Positions 16,526-22,734 of a stretch of 37,302 bases of DNA are shown in pieces. How positions within the stretch are numbered: position 1 is the first letter of the stretch; each line of letters begins with the position of its first letter. Location: the NCBI GenBank assembly GCA_026988075.1, contig JALSLZ010000176.1, forward strand, positions 1 through 37,302. Reading direction: 5' to 3'. The notes beneath the pieces are model-generated. The model worked only from the letters and a program-made list of their open reading frames with translations, ran no database searches and had not been told where the DNA came from. A program made the translations under genes and the position numbers. The stretch is from Flavobacteriaceae bacterium (GTDB lineage Bacteria > Bacteroidota > Bacteroidia > Flavobacteriales > Flavobacteriaceae).

Positions 16526-16978
16526 ATGAAGCTAAATAAAATTCTAAAACGCAAAGGTTATATTTCAATTAAATTAAACAAAACAATCACCAATCATTAC
16601 GAAGTAAAGGCAAAAATAAACGGCAAAAAAGGCAGCTTTATTTTAGATACTGGCGCTTCTAATTCTTGTATAGATTTTAATAATGCTAATTATTTTAATT
16701 TAGACGTATTAGCATCTTCTACGCTTGCTTCTGGAGCTGGAGCTACCGATATGTTTACAAAAAAATCGCTTAAAAACAAATTATCAATTAAGAAATGGCA
16801 TTTTTTTAATTTTGATTTGGTACTTTTTGATTTGACGCATGTAAATTTAGCATTAACAAAACACAATGCAAAAGAAATTCATGGCATTATTGGTGCAGAT
16901 ATTCTTCAAAAAGGAAAAGCAATCATAGATTACAAAAACAGCAAACTGTATCTTAAAAAACTTGTTTTTATGTACTAA
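16526..16978 (+). CDS. Retropepsin-like aspartic protease family protein
   Basis: A 150-residue single-domain protein of clan AA. The catalytic motif is FILDTGASNS with Asp41-Thr42-Gly43, preceded by the flap-forming strands VKAKINGKKG. The second hydrophobic-hydrophobic-Gly element is HGIIGADIL at about 116-124, followed by the closing strands AIIDY and KLYLKK. One active-site Asp per chain implies a homodimer, as in retroviral proteases. No signal peptide is seen, so it is probably cytoplasmic. The bacterial role and substrate are unknown. It is a short transcript of its own, with a promoter box upstream and a bidirectional terminator shared with rpsA. Confidence 0.88.
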   Translation: MKLNKILKRKGYISIKLNKTITNHYEVKAKINGKKGSFILDTGASNSCIDFNNANYFNLDVLASSTLASGAGATDMFTKKSLKNKLSIKKWHFFNFDLVLFDLTHVNLALTKHNAKEIHGIIGADILQKGKAIIDYKNSKLYLKKLVFMY

Positions 16979-16983
16979 ACAAA

Positions 16984-17013
16984 AAAAGACTGTCATTAAA
17001 TTGACAGTCTTTT
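16984..17013. terminator. Bidirectional terminator between the retropepsin gene and rpsA
   Basis: A 12-bp perfect stem (16984-16995 with 17002-17013) with a 6-base loop, an A-run on the left and T's on the right. It serves the convergent genes ending at 16978 (+) and 17037 (-). Confidence 0.88.
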
Positions 17014-17036: not shown

Positions 17037-19256
17037 TTATTTTCCTTCCATTTTCTTTTTCAAATCAGCTAAAGCAGAATTTGCTTCACCAATAGTAGTT
17101 TTCTCAGCGGTTTCTTGTTTTTTGATTGCTGTTTTAACATTTTTGTTTTCTTGCTCTCTAAAAGTAGATGTATGAGATACAACAAGTCTTCTATAGTCTT
17201 TATTAAATTCTAATACTGTAAAATTAACAGTATCTCCTTTAACTAATTTAGAACCATCTTCTTTCTCCATGTGACGTGATGGTACAAAACCTTCAACATC
17301 ACCAAAAGATACTATTGCACCTTTATCGTTCTTTTCAGTAACAGTACCTTCGTGAATACTGTCAATTGAGAATGTAGATTCATGACCATCCCAAGGGTTA
17401 TCTTGAGTTTGTTTATGACCAATGTTTAGCTTTCTGTCTTCAACATTTAATTCTAAAACAACTACTTCTAATTCATCACCAACTTTTACAAATTCAGATG
17501 GATGCTTAACTTTTTTAGTCCAAGATAGGTCCGAAATATAAATTAAACCGTCAATACCTTCTTCTAATTCAACAAACACACCAAAGTTTGTGTAATTTCT
17601 TACTGTACCTTTATGTTTAGAACCAATTGGATATTTTTTAGTAATATCAGTCCAAGGATCAACATTTAATTGTTTGATACCTAAAGACATTTTTCTATCT
17701 TCTCTGCTAATTGTTAATATTTCAGCTTCTACTTCATCACCAACTTTTACGAAATCTTGTGCAGAACGTAAATGTGTTGACCATGACATTTCAGACACGT
17801 GTATTAAACCTTCAACTCCAGGAGCTACTTCGATAAACGCACCATAATCAGCAATAATAGTAATTTTTCCTTTGATTTTATCTCCAGCTTTTAAGCCTTC
17901 GTCTAAAGCTTCCCAAGGATGTTTACTTAATTGTTTTAAACCTAATTGAATTCTTGTTTTATCTTCATCAAAGTCAAGTATTACTACATTTAATGTTTGA
18001 TCTAACTCAACCACTTCGTTTGGATGATTGATTCTTGACCAAGATAAATCTGTAATATGTACTAATCCATCAACTCCACCAAGATCAACAAATACACCGT
18101 AAGAAGTAACGTTTTTCACAACACCTTCTAATACTTGTCCTTTTTCTAATTGACCAATGATTTCTTTTTTCTGAGCTGCAATATCAGCTTCGATAAGTGC
18201 TTTGTGCGATACTACAACATTTTTAAATTCGTGGTTTATTTTTACCACTTTGAATTCCATGTTTTTATCAACATATTGATCGTAATCTCTAATTGGCTTA
18301 ACGTCAATTTGAGATCCTGGTAAGAATGCTTCGATACCGAAAACATCTACAATCATACCACCTTTAGTTCTACATTTTACTAAACCAGTAACAATTTCTC
18401 CAGAGTCATGTGCGTCATTTACTCTTCCCCAAGCTTTAATTACACGAGCTTTACGATGAGATAACACCAATTGACCTGTTGAATCTTCTAATTTATCAAC
18501 TAAAACATCAACTTTATCACCTACTTTTAATGCTGAATTATAACGGAATTCGTTTAAAGAAATTACACCTTCTGATTTTGAATTAATATCAATAATAGCT
18601 TCACGTTCAGTCATTCTCATAACTGTACCAACTAACATTTGTCTTTCTTCAACAAAACCTTCAATGCCTTCTAATTCTTTTTCAAAAGCAGCAATTTTTT
18701 CTTCGTCAACTGCCTCAATACCTTCTTCATATTTATGCCAATCAAATTCAGCTAAAAATACTTTAGGGTCTACTTTTGGTTCTTCAACAACAACAGCTTC
18801 TTCCTTTGCCTCTACTTCAACCTCAACTTTTTCTTCTTTAGCAGCTTTAACTTCTGCTTTTGGAGCTTCTGCTTTAGTTGCTTTTTCTTCTGCTTTATTC
18901 ACTTCTTCTTTTTTTGAATCTGTATAATTACCCGCTAAATCTAAATCGCTTACTAAAATATAATAAAAAATAGCACGGTATTTGTTTTTATTAGATTTTC
19001 CCATTTTTTCACATACAGCAGTAATTGCCGCATCTAATTTTTCTGAATCTTCTAAACCATGCTTTTTAATTAAGAAATTTTTCTTAACTGTTAATACTTC
19101 AGATGCATCAGAACAAGAAACTACTTCTGCATCTTTTTTAAAAATTGAAGGTCCTAAACCTTTTACTACTTTTGTAAATAAATCTTTTTCAAAATTCACT
19201 CCTAATTTTTCCATCTCTGCGATGTAAAATTCAATTTTTTCTTCTGTTTTAGTCAT
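17037..19256 (-). CDS. rpsA: 30S ribosomal protein S1 with fused N-terminal DUF2853 domain
   Basis: S1 binds mRNA on the 30S subunit. Six OB-type S1 repeats are visible, at about 207-270, 286-351, 373-441, 458-527, 545-614 and 632-696; repeats 3-5 contain the canonical YGVFV/GAFIE and DGLVHITDLSW-type segments. The usual Bacteroidota S1 start (KVDPKVFLAEFDWHKYEEG) only appears at 161-179. Before it lie a Lys/Glu/Ala linker (about 114-160) and a complete DUF2853-like domain (1 to about 112: VKGLGPSIF, VSCSD, KKNFLIKKHGLED, CEKMG, NKYRAIFYYI). There is no Met codon between residues 86 and 206, so S1 cannot start at its usual place from an ATG. At 739 residues it is well above the roughly 600 normal for the phylum. 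Confidence 0.95.
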   Translation of the reverse strand: MTKTEEKIEFYIAEMEKLGVNFEKDLFTKVVKGLGPSIFKKDAEVVSCSDASEVLTVKKNFLIKKHGLEDSEKLDAAITAVCEKMGKSNKNKYRAIFYYILVSDLDLAGNYTDSKKEEVNKAEEKATKAEAPKAEVKAAKEEKVEVEVEAKEEAVVVEEPKVDPKVFLAEFDWHKYEEGIEAVDEEKIAAFEKELEGIEGFVEERQMLVGTVMRMTEREAIIDINSKSEGVISLNEFRYNSALKVGDKVDVLVDKLEDSTGQLVLSHRKARVIKAWGRVNDAHDSGEIVTGLVKCRTKGGMIVDVFGIEAFLPGSQIDVKPIRDYDQYVDKNMEFKVVKINHEFKNVVVSHKALIEADIAAQKKEIIGQLEKGQVLEGVVKNVTSYGVFVDLGGVDGLVHITDLSWSRINHPNEVVELDQTLNVVILDFDEDKTRIQLGLKQLSKHPWEALDEGLKAGDKIKGKITIIADYGAFIEVAPGVEGLIHVSEMSWSTHLRSAQDFVKVGDEVEAEILTISREDRKMSLGIKQLNVDPWTDITKKYPIGSKHKGTVRNYTNFGVFVELEEGIDGLIYISDLSWTKKVKHPSEFVKVGDELEVVVLELNVEDRKLNIGHKQTQDNPWDGHESTFSIDSIHEGTVTEKNDKGAIVSFGDVEGFVPSRHMEKEDGSKLVKGDTVNFTVLEFNKDYRRLVVSHTSTFREQENKNVKTAIKKQETAEKTTIGEANSALADLKKKMEGK

Positions 19257-19372
19257 TTGACTATTTATTTTGTATCTTATTGTTATTTAGATTATTAAGC
19301 AGTAAATAACACTAAGAGATTATTAAAATTTTCTAAATTATCTTCCTTTTCTAATCTATTACTGCGAAAAGG
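19257..19372 (-). ncRNA. Structured 5' leader of rpsA (candidate cis-regulatory RNA)
   Basis: The predicted transcript start near 19372 leaves a leader of about 115 bases, much longer than the roughly 15-35 predicted for other genes here. It begins with a 7-bp hairpin, CCTTTTC (19372-19366) with GAAAAGG (19351-19345). Its 14-base loop is almost wholly complementary to two downstream leader segments: GCAGTAA (19365-19359) to TTACTGC (19305-19299), and AGATTA (19357-19352) to TAATCT (19322-19317). This allows a pseudoknot or a switch between folds. S1 autoregulation is known in other bacteria; the link here is inference. Confidence 0.4.
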
Positions 19373-19376
19373 TTTG

Positions 19377-19407
19377 CAAAATTAGTTAATATTTTGGTCT
19401 TGAACAA
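19377..19407 (-). promoter_or_regulatory. Promoter of rpsA
   Basis: On the minus strand, TTG (19407-19405), 20 bases of spacing, then TAATTTTG (19384-19377), a full TAnnTTTG. This is the best-formed promoter in the window. Confidence 0.65.
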
Positions 19408-19546
19408 GATAATTGACTAAAAATAGAGAAGGAAAAAAGAAATGAAAAAGGAAAATTAATTACATAGTTTGGCTTTGTAATAGAAAACTCGTAAATAATT
19501 CGGGTTAAAACTGTACTTTTTACAAAAAAAAACATTAATTCAACTT
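19408..19546. other. Non-coding remainder of the rpsA / thioredoxin-gene gap
   Basis: The gap between rpsA (from 19257) and the gene ending at 19586 is 329 bases. Apart from the rpsA leader and promoter and a weak terminator at 19547-19580, the rest is AT-rich with no frame or repeat that I can support. Confidence 0.5.
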
Positions 19547-19585: not shown

Positions 19586-20635
19586 TTAATTTATCAATAA
19601 ATTATCTAATGTTTTTTCTATCAATTTACTGGATGGTCGCTGTGCATTTGCATCAATAATATTCCCTTCTTTATCAATTAATATAAAACGAGGAATACTT
19701 CTAATACCATATTCTTTAATAAAGCTTGACCTCCAAGCATTATCTGCATATAATTGTACGCCTTTCATATTTCTGCTTTTAATCATACGCTTCCAAGCTA
19801 ACTTAGCTTGCTCCGCATCATTTTTATAACCTCTACCATTATCTACCGATATACTAACAAACTCGATTTTTTTATTTTTATACTTTTCTGTCAGCTTTTT
19901 TAAAGCAGGAATTTCTCTTTTACAAGGTCCACACCAAGTTGCCCAAATATCTATATAGACAAACTTTCCTTTAAAATTATCTAAAGATGTTTTTCCGCCT
20001 TTATAGTTTTCGTAATTTACAAATTTAGGCGAAACATTTCCTTTTTTGAATTTTAACAAGTCTTGATGCTTCTTAGCGTAATTTATTTTTAAATATTCAA
20101 TAAATTTATTGTTTCTATTAACTTCATTACTTCTTATTGTAGAATCAACATTCTTTATTGCTAATAAATCATTGAATTTTCGTTCTACACTTTTAAGTTT
20201 AGCATTGAATTCTTTTGGATTTAACTTAAAAAAAGAACTGTAATTATTTAAATTTTCTTCTTTATTTACCTTCTTTTTATTAAACAAATACTCTGTTGTT
20301 CCAGAACCGCTACCTGTAAATTGTATTGTTTTATTAAAATTTGTGTAATCGTATTGTAAATTTAATTCACCTCCATTTTTAATGTAAATTTCAACTTCAT
20401 TTTTACCATCTGTAAATCTATACTTGCCTGAATTAATTAAATGTAAGGTGTCCGAAAAACTGCCATCTAACTCAACATCAATTCGTTTATCTACAAGCTT
20501 GTTTGATACATATATAGTTTCTGTATCGTTTTTCGCTATTAAACCTTTTATAGTTATGTAATTACTATCTTGCTTATTACCACACGAAATAATTGTAAAA
20601 ACAATTAATACAGCTACTATTATTTTTTGAAACAT
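19586..20635 (-). CDS. TlpA-like thioredoxin-fold lipoprotein, copy 3
   Basis: A 349-residue envelope lipoprotein. The lipobox ends at Cys18 (TIISC). A beta-rich N-terminal domain (about 25-110) with VELDGSFSDTLHL resembles the DUF4369-type domain found before Bacteroidota redoxins. A helical linker follows, then a C-terminal TlpA/AhpC-TSA domain from about 200. The redox motif is WATWCGPC with Cys235 and Cys238, and the cis-Pro loop is SIPRFILID. It is probably a periplasm-facing thiol-disulfide reductase; substrate and reductant are unknown. It is the last of three adjacent homologues, starting one base after the stop of the middle copy. Confidence 0.9.
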   Translation of the reverse strand: MFQKIIVAVLIVFTIISCGNKQDSNYITIKGLIAKNDTETIYVSNKLVDKRIDVELDGSFSDTLHLINSGKYRFTDGKNEVEIYIKNGGELNLQYDYTNFNKTIQFTGSGSGTTEYLFNKKKVNKEENLNNYSSFFKLNPKEFNAKLKSVERKFNDLLAIKNVDSTIRSNEVNRNNKFIEYLKINYAKKHQDLLKFKKGNVSPKFVNYENYKGGKTSLDNFKGKFVYIDIWATWCGPCKREIPALKKLTEKYKNKKIEFVSISVDNGRGYKNDAEQAKLAWKRMIKSRNMKGVQLYADNAWRSSFIKEYGIRSIPRFILIDKEGNIIDANAQRPSSKLIEKTLDNLLIN

Positions 20636-20636
20636 A

Positions 20637-21668
20637 CTACTTTAATAATTTAGTTAATAGTTCTTTTGTTTGTGGATTTGACGGTCGTGACATTTTATCG
20701 TTTACGACATTACCTTTTGGATCAATTAATATAAAACGTGGTATTGAATTTACTTTATAAGCTTTTATAAATGAATCGTTTTGAATTGCAAACAATTGAA
20801 TTCCACCCATTTTTTTATCAGCTATCATTTTTTTCCATTTACTCTTAGCATTTTCACGATCGATTGAGATACTTACAAAATGTATTTTTTTACCTTTAAA
20901 TGCTTCTTCTAATTTTTGCAAGTGAGGAATCTCACCAAGACAAGGTCTACACCAAGTTGCCCAAATATCTATATAAACATATTTTCCGCTTAAATCTTTC
21001 AACGATGTTTTACCACCTGAAAAATTTTCATAATTGTTAAACTCTGGTGATTTTTTTCCGTTAAATGAACTGGTAGACGAATTATTAGTTCTTGATTGCC
21101 CTTGATTGTATTGCTTATCTAACATTGCTGGTAAACCTGCTAATGCTTTTTCTTCTTCTTTATAAAACGAGTCATCAATATTATTATGTTTTTTGAGCAA
21201 GGCAGTCAATTCGCTAACTATCATAGAAGATTTAGCTTTAAAGTCCGCTTCTTTCATTTGAAACAATTCTTTTACATTGATTTTACTTTGCCATAATGTT
21301 TTTTCTGCCAAATAATTATTCGTTTCACTTCCGTTACCTGAAAATTTTATAGACTCGATAAAGTTATCAATATTTGCATTTAACTTTATATCATCGTTAT
21401 TTTTCAAATATATACGTATTGGTTTTTTAACTGAAAATAAAAAAAGGTCTCCTTTCTCGTTTAAATGAAGTGTGTCTGAAAAAGTACCGTCATCATTTAA
21501 AACAATAGTCTTAGCATAACCAGTTCGCCCTTTAATCGTAATTTTTTTTACATTGGCATTTTTAATAGTTCCAGATATTTTTGCATAATCTTTTGGAGCA
21601 TCTTCTTTGCAAGAAGTTAAAAATGTAATTAATAATATAATACTAAGTAAACCTATTTTTTTCATCAC
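20637..21668 (-). CDS. TlpA-like thioredoxin-fold lipoprotein, copy 2 (CRPC variant)
   Basis: A 343-residue homologue of its neighbours with the same order of parts: lipobox Cys20 (TFLTSC), N-terminal beta domain with LNDDGTFSDTLHL, linker, and thioredoxin-like domain with cis-Pro SIPRFILID. The active site is WATWCRPC (Cys240, Cys243) instead of CGPC. Residues between the two Cys set the redox potential in thioredoxin-fold proteins, so this copy may differ in direction or strength of redox chemistry. It also lacks the GRGYKD-type insertion present in both other copies after SISVDN, reading SISIDRENAKS instead. The gap from copy 1 is 16 bases. Confidence 0.9.
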   Translation of the reverse strand: MMKKIGLLSIILLITFLTSCKEDAPKDYAKISGTIKNANVKKITIKGRTGYAKTIVLNDDGTFSDTLHLNEKGDLFLFSVKKPIRIYLKNNDDIKLNANIDNFIESIKFSGNGSETNNYLAEKTLWQSKINVKELFQMKEADFKAKSSMIVSELTALLKKHNNIDDSFYKEEEKALAGLPAMLDKQYNQGQSRTNNSSTSSFNGKKSPEFNNYENFSGGKTSLKDLSGKYVYIDIWATWCRPCLGEIPHLQKLEEAFKGKKIHFVSISIDRENAKSKWKKMIADKKMGGIQLFAIQNDSFIKAYKVNSIPRFILIDPKGNVVNDKMSRPSNPQTKELLTKLLK

Positions 21669-21684
21669 TTCAGTTTATTAAATG

Positions 21685-22734
21685 TTATTTTAAAATTTTA
21701 TTGAATAGCGCTGTTGTTTTAACACTTGATGGTCTTGATGCGTTCGCATCTACAATATTTCCGCTTGGATCTATCAAAATAAAACGAGGAATACCATTAA
21801 TTTCGTATTGTGTTACAAAATCAGACTTCCATGCTTTATCTGCAAACAACTGAATTCCACCCATTTGTTTTTCTTTTATCATTTTTTTCCAGCCATCTTT
21901 AGAAAGTGCTAAAGAATTGTCTTTATAACCTCTACCATTATCAACTGAGATACTTACAAATTCAATGTTTTTATCGTGATATGCCTTTTCTAACTTTTGC
22001 AAGTGTGGAATTTCAGCTTTACAAGGTCCACACCATGTAGCCCAAACATCAATATACACATATTTACCACGCAAATCTTTTAACGAAGTAACGCCACCTT
22101 TAAAATTTTCATAATTAATAAACTCTGGAGATGGTTTACCAATCAATTTAGCATAACGATTTTTTTCTTTTTTCATTTCGTAATAGCTTTTAAGCATTTG
22201 CTTTTCATTAGCTGCAAAGCTTTCTTTTTCTGCTTTTACTAAATTAGCAGCAACTCCTTTTTCTTTTGCTAAAACATTTTCAAATTGAGTCGTTATTTCT
22301 TTTGCTTTTGCTTTAAATTCTGTTTCATCAAGCTCAAATAAATTAGATGAATATGCTTTTTCTGAAAAAAGTGATTTTTTAGCTAAATAATTATTATTAA
22401 CCATTCCTTTACCTGTGTATTTTATAGTCTCATCAAACTCTTTTGTGTCTAAAGTCAATTTTAAATCATCTCCATTTTGTAAATAAACTGATGTAAACTC
22501 ATTGCCGTCAGAAAAAGTAAATAATGCACCATCATTTTTAACGTGTATTGTATCTGAAAAAACACCTTCTTTAGATATTTTAATTTCTTTTTTATAACCA
22601 TCGGTAGATATTGAACCATTCTTACCAAAATGATTTGTGATTATTCCAGAAAATGTAGCGTAATTTTGTGGTTTTTTATTACATGAAAATAATGAAACTA
22701 TTAATGCGAAAATAAATACTTTTTTAATCATCAT
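21685..22734 (-). CDS. TlpA-like thioredoxin-fold lipoprotein, copy 1
   Basis: A 349-residue envelope lipoprotein, first of the three-gene run. The lipobox ends at Cys18 (SLFSC), followed by a beta-rich domain with ISKEGVFSDTIHV, a Lys/Glu-rich helical linker (about 115-195) and the thioredoxin-like domain. The active site is WATWCGPC (Cys235, Cys238), the cis-Pro loop GIPRFILID, and the tail NIVDANASRPSS is shared with copy 3. By these blocks copies 1 and 3 are closer to each other than to copy 2. A TAnnTTTG box lies 23 bases upstream of the ATG and probably serves all three genes. Confidence 0.9.
   Translation of the reverse strand: MMIKKVFIFALIVSLFSCNKKPQNYATFSGIITNHFGKNGSISTDGYKKEIKISKEGVFSDTIHVKNDGALFTFSDGNEFTSVYLQNGDDLKLTLDTKEFDETIKYTGKGMVNNNYLAKKSLFSEKAYSSNLFELDETEFKAKAKEITTQFENVLAKEKGVAANLVKAEKESFAANEKQMLKSYYEMKKEKNRYAKLIGKPSPEFINYENFKGGVTSLKDLRGKYVYIDVWATWCGPCKAEIPHLQKLEKAYHDKNIEFVSISVDNGRGYKDNSLALSKDGWKKMIKEKQMGGIQLFADKAWKSDFVTQYEINGIPRFILIDPSGNIVDANASRPSSVKTTALFNKILK

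Follow-up and report, generated by a model that had tools for sequence, protein, structure and literature searches.

The locus described here lies in a 37,302-nucleotide stretch of DNA from a Flavobacteriaceae bacterium (the window), in which positions 17037-19256 (minus strand) form a single open frame of 739 amino acids that joins a DUF2853 domain, a linker and ribosomal protein bS1, the product of rpsA and a protein that helps ribosomes to capture mRNA. To one side of this gene, at 16526-16978 (plus strand) and convergent with rpsA, is a gene for a small retropepsin-like aspartyl protease-like protein; to the other side, at 19586-22734 (minus strand), are three paralogues in tandem, each of about 345 codons, the first of which encodes a thioredoxin-like (Redoxin/AhpC) protein. 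The features of the fused gene and its flanks, in the direction of transcription, are the following.

19377..19407, minus strand: promoter-like site TTG ... TAATTTTG, of the Bacteroidota TTG/TAnnTTTG pattern
19269..19379, minus strand: rpsA leader RNA element, consisting of hairpins P1 and P2 and a loop-loop pairing, aligned in 50 leaders
19372-19345, minus strand: leader hairpin P1, recovered by energy folding
about 19317-19275, minus strand: leader hairpin P2, recovered by energy folding
18933..19256, minus strand: DUF2853 domain, residues 1-108 (PF11015 match and five-helix model)
18768..18932, minus strand: acidic Lys/Glu/Ala/Val-rich linker, about residues 109-163, disordered, without ATG and under relaxed constraint
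17040..18767, minus strand: bS1 body, residues 164-739, with N-terminal helices (FDWHKYE motif) and six S1 repeats (NF004953)
16984..17013, minus strand: terminator-like stem-loop and T run just 3' of the rpsA stop codon, with a 12-pair stem that includes 4 GC pairs

An earlier note on this sequence had described one uninterrupted 739-codon frame in which DUF2853 precedes a complete six-repeat S1, and our profile searches bear this out. The frame is intact; residues 11-105 match Pfam PF11015 (DUF2853) with 114.3 bits against a cutoff of 25 (E 4.5e-33); PF00575 (S1) matches the protein in six stretches, corresponding to six S1 repeats; and the 30S S1 equivalog NF004953 of NCBIfam matches residues 164-738 with 880.7 bits against a cutoff of 720. 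The protein scored below the cutoff for the IspH-S1 family NF000907 (465 bits against 624), with the best stretch located in the S1 part.

We regard as negligible the chance that this gene is a sequencing or assembly artefact. The window does come from a fragmented genome assembly that is 70% complete, but the same open-frame architecture, in diverged sequence, is present in 28 other assemblies, two of them single-contig, and these rule out an assembly artefact. A scan of GTDB genomes detected the fusion in Lutibacter sp. NORP37 and in other metagenome assemblies of Flavobacteriaceae or Bacteroidota, and found unfused S1 frames of about 600 codons in Polaribacter, Tenacibaculum, Wenyingzhuangia and Winogradskyella. 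Among 400 Flavobacteriaceae genomes, drawn evenly from 237 genera, DUF2853 occurs in 264 and bS1 in 390, and the two are fused in 16 genomes from 9 genera; the fused frames have 743-809 codons, save two that are cut by a contig end (G002 and G153). When two more genomes of the window's genus and the named loci were added to these 16 and duplicates removed, the fusion was counted in at least 29 distinct Flavobacteriaceae assemblies, including the two single-contig genomes (G030 and G119). A phylum-wide sample of 386 genomes contained no more fusions to S1 outside the Flavobacteriaceae. The bacteria of the fused clade are marine and related to Lutibacter, and it is near certain that the fusion itself is a genuine, lineage-specific variant of bS1. 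As a separate observation on S1 length in the family, the unfused S1 of one genome (G053; L177 / L266) has about 713 residues and an N-terminal tail repeating EAVTETIKEVEAEVVATEVV.

Methionine occurs in the fused protein at residues 1, 15 and 85 and then at residue 207, as expected from the earlier statement that none lies between residues 86 and 206, and the linker thus has none; between codons 85 and 206 of the frame, GTG is present only at codon 119 and TTG is absent. An ATG is likewise missing from the linker in 20 of 24 fused genes compared. The pattern TTG-N-TAnnTTTG has a single match on this strand in 17037-19500, at 19407-19377, which agrees with the placing of the sole promoter ahead of the DUF2853 part, and the sequence TAnnTTTGCA is kept ahead of rpsA in most relatives. 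The bS1 of the fused gene is the sole S1 of the window's genome at E <= 1e-100, and a single S1 was likewise present in every fused genome checked. With ATG rare in the linkers and no promoter match other than the one ahead of DUF2853, S1 in fused genomes is apparently made solely as the fusion protein.

An alignment of the regions ahead of rpsA, in fused and unfused genes alike, extends from the promoter as far as about 15 bases short of the start codon, and the aligned stretch has the features of a structured leader RNA. In the window, the loops of P1 and P2 can pair with each other through GCAGTAA/TTACTGC and TAGATTA/TAATCTA; energy folding recovers P1 and P2, with a total energy that is unremarkable (z -1.5). 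P1 was located for each sequence individually, since MAFFT misaligns it. For P2 and the two loop-loop helices, 91.5% of cells in the 50 leaders are paired, 18 of 23 pairs change on both sides, and such both-side changes number 101 cells as compared with 29 in shuffles; when partners were slid by 1-3 columns as a control, only 34-48% of cells were paired. The covariation may partly reflect a structure read from the same sequences, although the contrast with the slid controls is large. A covariance model of the leader, used with strict filters, matched 23 of 148 genomes from the order, with a single hit in each, and an S1 frame lies downstream of the hit in 17 of 20 loci inspected; several of the order's families have this leader ahead of S1. 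Neither the window nor 7 relatives matched Rfam 15 at gathering score (weak chance hits only), and a published survey of 20 ribosomal leaders mentions neither rpsA nor bS1. What is new here is a two-hairpin leader with covarying loop-loop pairing that is common to fused and unfused rpsA and absent from Rfam. Its position directly before the start codon in both kinds of gene means that DUF2853 was inserted behind rpsA's own control region.

We infer a regulatory role for the flavobacterial leader by analogy with E. coli, in which bS1 is an autogenous repressor of its own mRNA and has a high affinity for pseudoknots (PMC10931766). That repression and affinity, together with the conserved, structured leader directly upstream of the fused frame, would also suit an explanation in which the tethered DUF2853 tunes S1 synthesis by altering the binding of free S1 to the rpsA leader. 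We consider this improbable, since the same leader is present in unfused genomes and hence does not depend on the domain, and the DUF2853 domain is not basic.

With regard to the origin of the fused domain, DUF2853 trees are compatible with a single clade of fused domains, and constraining them to group gave a better tree; in a second tree one weakly supported branch (49) separates them from the rest. The free proteins with which they cluster are of the MSK[L/F]DEKI type, not of the commoner MSKRDEL type that is encoded behind menD, and the menD-linked free gene was therefore rejected as their source. On these sequence comparisons, the fused domains look like the product of one origin from a free paralogue of the MSK[L/F]DEKI type. 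Fusion by read-through of neighbouring genes was also rejected: in three unfused relatives no DUF2853 gene adjoins rpsA, the free genes being located elsewhere. Trees of the S1 body gave a different result, in that the fused genes are not grouped as one clade (p-AU 1.6e-4 with every row included), and a further S1-body tree test likewise rejects such a clade; p-AU is 0.07 when L011, L015 and L183 are left out. The fused S1 of L011 (4001-6223) is a mosaic, the first 240 columns resembling the fused clade and the remainder the Winogradskyella group, and is apparently a product of intragenic recombination or of chimeric assembly. The conflict between the trees may stem from mosaicism of this kind or from lineages that lost the fusion secondarily.

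In pairwise comparisons the fused domain has dN/dS values of 0.03-0.21, as against 0.09-0.48 in the linker and 0.01-0.10 in S1; the domain is therefore under purifying selection, weaker than that on S1. In an alignment of 29 free and fused DUF2853 sequences, residues G33, G35, P36, V46, E53, K58, N60, K64, K65, G86, K92, Y93, R94, A95, Y98 and L101 are invariant; the family-invariant residues are mostly present in the Jannaschia protein of known structure (PDB 2PYQ). This selection and the retention of invariant residues speak against the view that the domain is a near-neutral N-terminal elaboration with no function of its own. S1 N-terminal tails do vary freely in Flavobacteriaceae, the 713-residue S1 mentioned above being one example, but on balance there is little to recommend that view.

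The earlier suggestion that fused genomes might lack a separate DUF2853 gene proved mostly wrong. The window's genome contains a free DUF2853 as well (a 119-codon frame), as do all six genomes searched of its genus; further fused genomes likewise have free DUF2853 genes, which are of the same or different types and in some cases very divergent. Among near-complete genomes, the fused copy is alone only in G030 and G259, which belong to one genus; in G336 (90% complete) no other copy was seen either. As most fused genomes keep a free DUF2853, the domain was not simply moved to S1. Four of the very divergent free copies, in fused genomes from three genera (L251, L252, L253 and L254), have scores of 58-96 bits against the fused-domain profile, which suggests that their function is relaxed or altered. 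In one free DUF2853 gene (G125), an apparent stop disappeared with a narrower domain match, and the frame is open. In about 28 of 30 family loci with a menD-linked free gene, that gene is preceded by menD and followed by one encoding an S1_2-domain (CvfB-like) protein (L092-L121, L148, L149). This neighbourhood is not universal, free DUF2853 genes having other neighbours in some Flavobacteriaceae, in other families and in Alphaproteobacteria, and it is for this reason a second but weak link to RNA biology. A search for DUF2853 in phages found none, and one in plasmids found two alphaproteobacterial records with no translation genes in the neighbourhood.

The modelled DUF2853 domain has five helices (pLDDT 90) and superimposes on 2PYQ with TM scores of 0.89/0.87; 2PYQ was its sole match, and the search yielded no fold relative of known function. 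In the full-length model the linker has pLDDT values mostly of 26-41, as for a disordered segment, and short helices lie between it and the first OB fold; because confidence in this model is low (pTM 0.37), we claim no arrangement of the domains. The net charge of the DUF2853 domain is about zero and the linker is acidic, so that protein binding is favoured over nonspecific RNA binding, and the latter, as an activity of a basic domain, was rejected on the grounds of this charge.

We propose that a duplicate of a free DUF2853 gene entered rpsA in frame, behind its promoter, leader RNA and start and ahead of the S1 body, so that each S1, as the sequences show, bears an N-terminal DUF2853 whose flexible linker is about 45-110 residues long. 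Domain 1 of E. coli bS1, at the N-terminus, is cited in PMC6847099 as binding uS2, the anchor to the 30S subunit. The corresponding N-terminal helix region is conserved in the fused proteins, for which incorporation through uS2 is predicted, and by analogy DUF2853 would sit on the platform side of the 30S subunit near the mRNA exit. There, the tethered domain would most likely act as a protein-binding accessory module that keeps a partner at the ribosome or at S1-bound mRNA, and the free proteins of the family would have a related translation- or RNA-linked role. That DUF2853 is such an accessory domain, tethered at the 30S anchor of S1 near the mRNA exit and holding a partner there, is a reading to which we assign an even chance. 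We hold more tentatively to the wider picture of DUF2853 as ribosome-associated, a 30S domain by way of bS1 in this clade and a set of free proteins binding the same target elsewhere, together with a kissing-hairpin rpsA leader not described before.

The principal alternative, for which we allow an appreciable but smaller chance, is that a non-ribosomal DUF2853 gains the high, leader-controlled expression of S1 by being joined to it, and is perhaps freed by proteolysis of the linker. This accords with a linker that is long, disordered and poorly conserved; with the expandable acidic N-terminal tail already present in unfused S1, which makes the site tolerant of insertions; and with the occurrence of DUF2853 next to genes unrelated to translation. 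Yet the tether to S1 has been kept across many genera even though splitting would be easy, its cost is borne by an essential protein, and no conserved cleavage motif was noticed, outside any systematic search. Returning to the accessory-domain reading, the earlier inference that DUF2853 proteins act in translation or on ribosomes is plausible and partly supported, by the occurrence of the fusion in 9 genera, by purifying selection, by the single-copy state of S1 and by the frequent location of the free gene between menD and the S1_2-domain gene. It nevertheless stays unproven, as an inference, in view of the lack of net positive charge, a fold that matches only 2PYQ and the variable gene neighbourhood; the free DUF2853 kept by most fused genomes and the S1-body trees also count against the accessory-domain reading.

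It has been proposed that bS1 is one factor standing in for Shine-Dalgarno pairing in Bacteroidota, whose ribosomes conceal the anti-SD (PMC6847099, PMC9976891), and in F. johnsoniae initiation on one SD-less mRNA rose about two-fold when bS1 was added (PMC9976891). A clade with DUF2853 on every S1 gives direct access to the function of this family, which is named in a single paper of the literature searched, and to the recruitment of other factors by S1; with the shared leader RNA, autoregulation of S1 becomes testable in Bacteroidota.

As compared with other Bacteroidota bS1 proteins (NF004953; the solved relative PDB 9ZCD has 591 aa), the fused protein has the same six repeats, N-terminal helices and single copy, and its gene has the leader RNA common to unfused relatives, but a 108-residue DUF2853 and a long linker have been added at its N-terminus. 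The added domain resembles DUF2853 proteins at large (PF11015; 2PYQ) in sequence, five-helix fold and invariant residues; that family is normally free and of about 110 residues, whereas here it forms a domain of a ribosomal protein. The bifunctional IspH-S1 protein (NF000907) is a precedent for an unrelated protein ahead of S1, although its partner is a metabolic enzyme and its lineage is different. Finally, the autoregulated rpsA leader of gammaproteobacteria (PMC10931766) is, like the leader described here, a structured 5' region of rpsA mRNA; the flavobacterial leader differs in consisting of two hairpins with loop-loop pairing, in lying outside Rfam, and in that its regulation is predicted.
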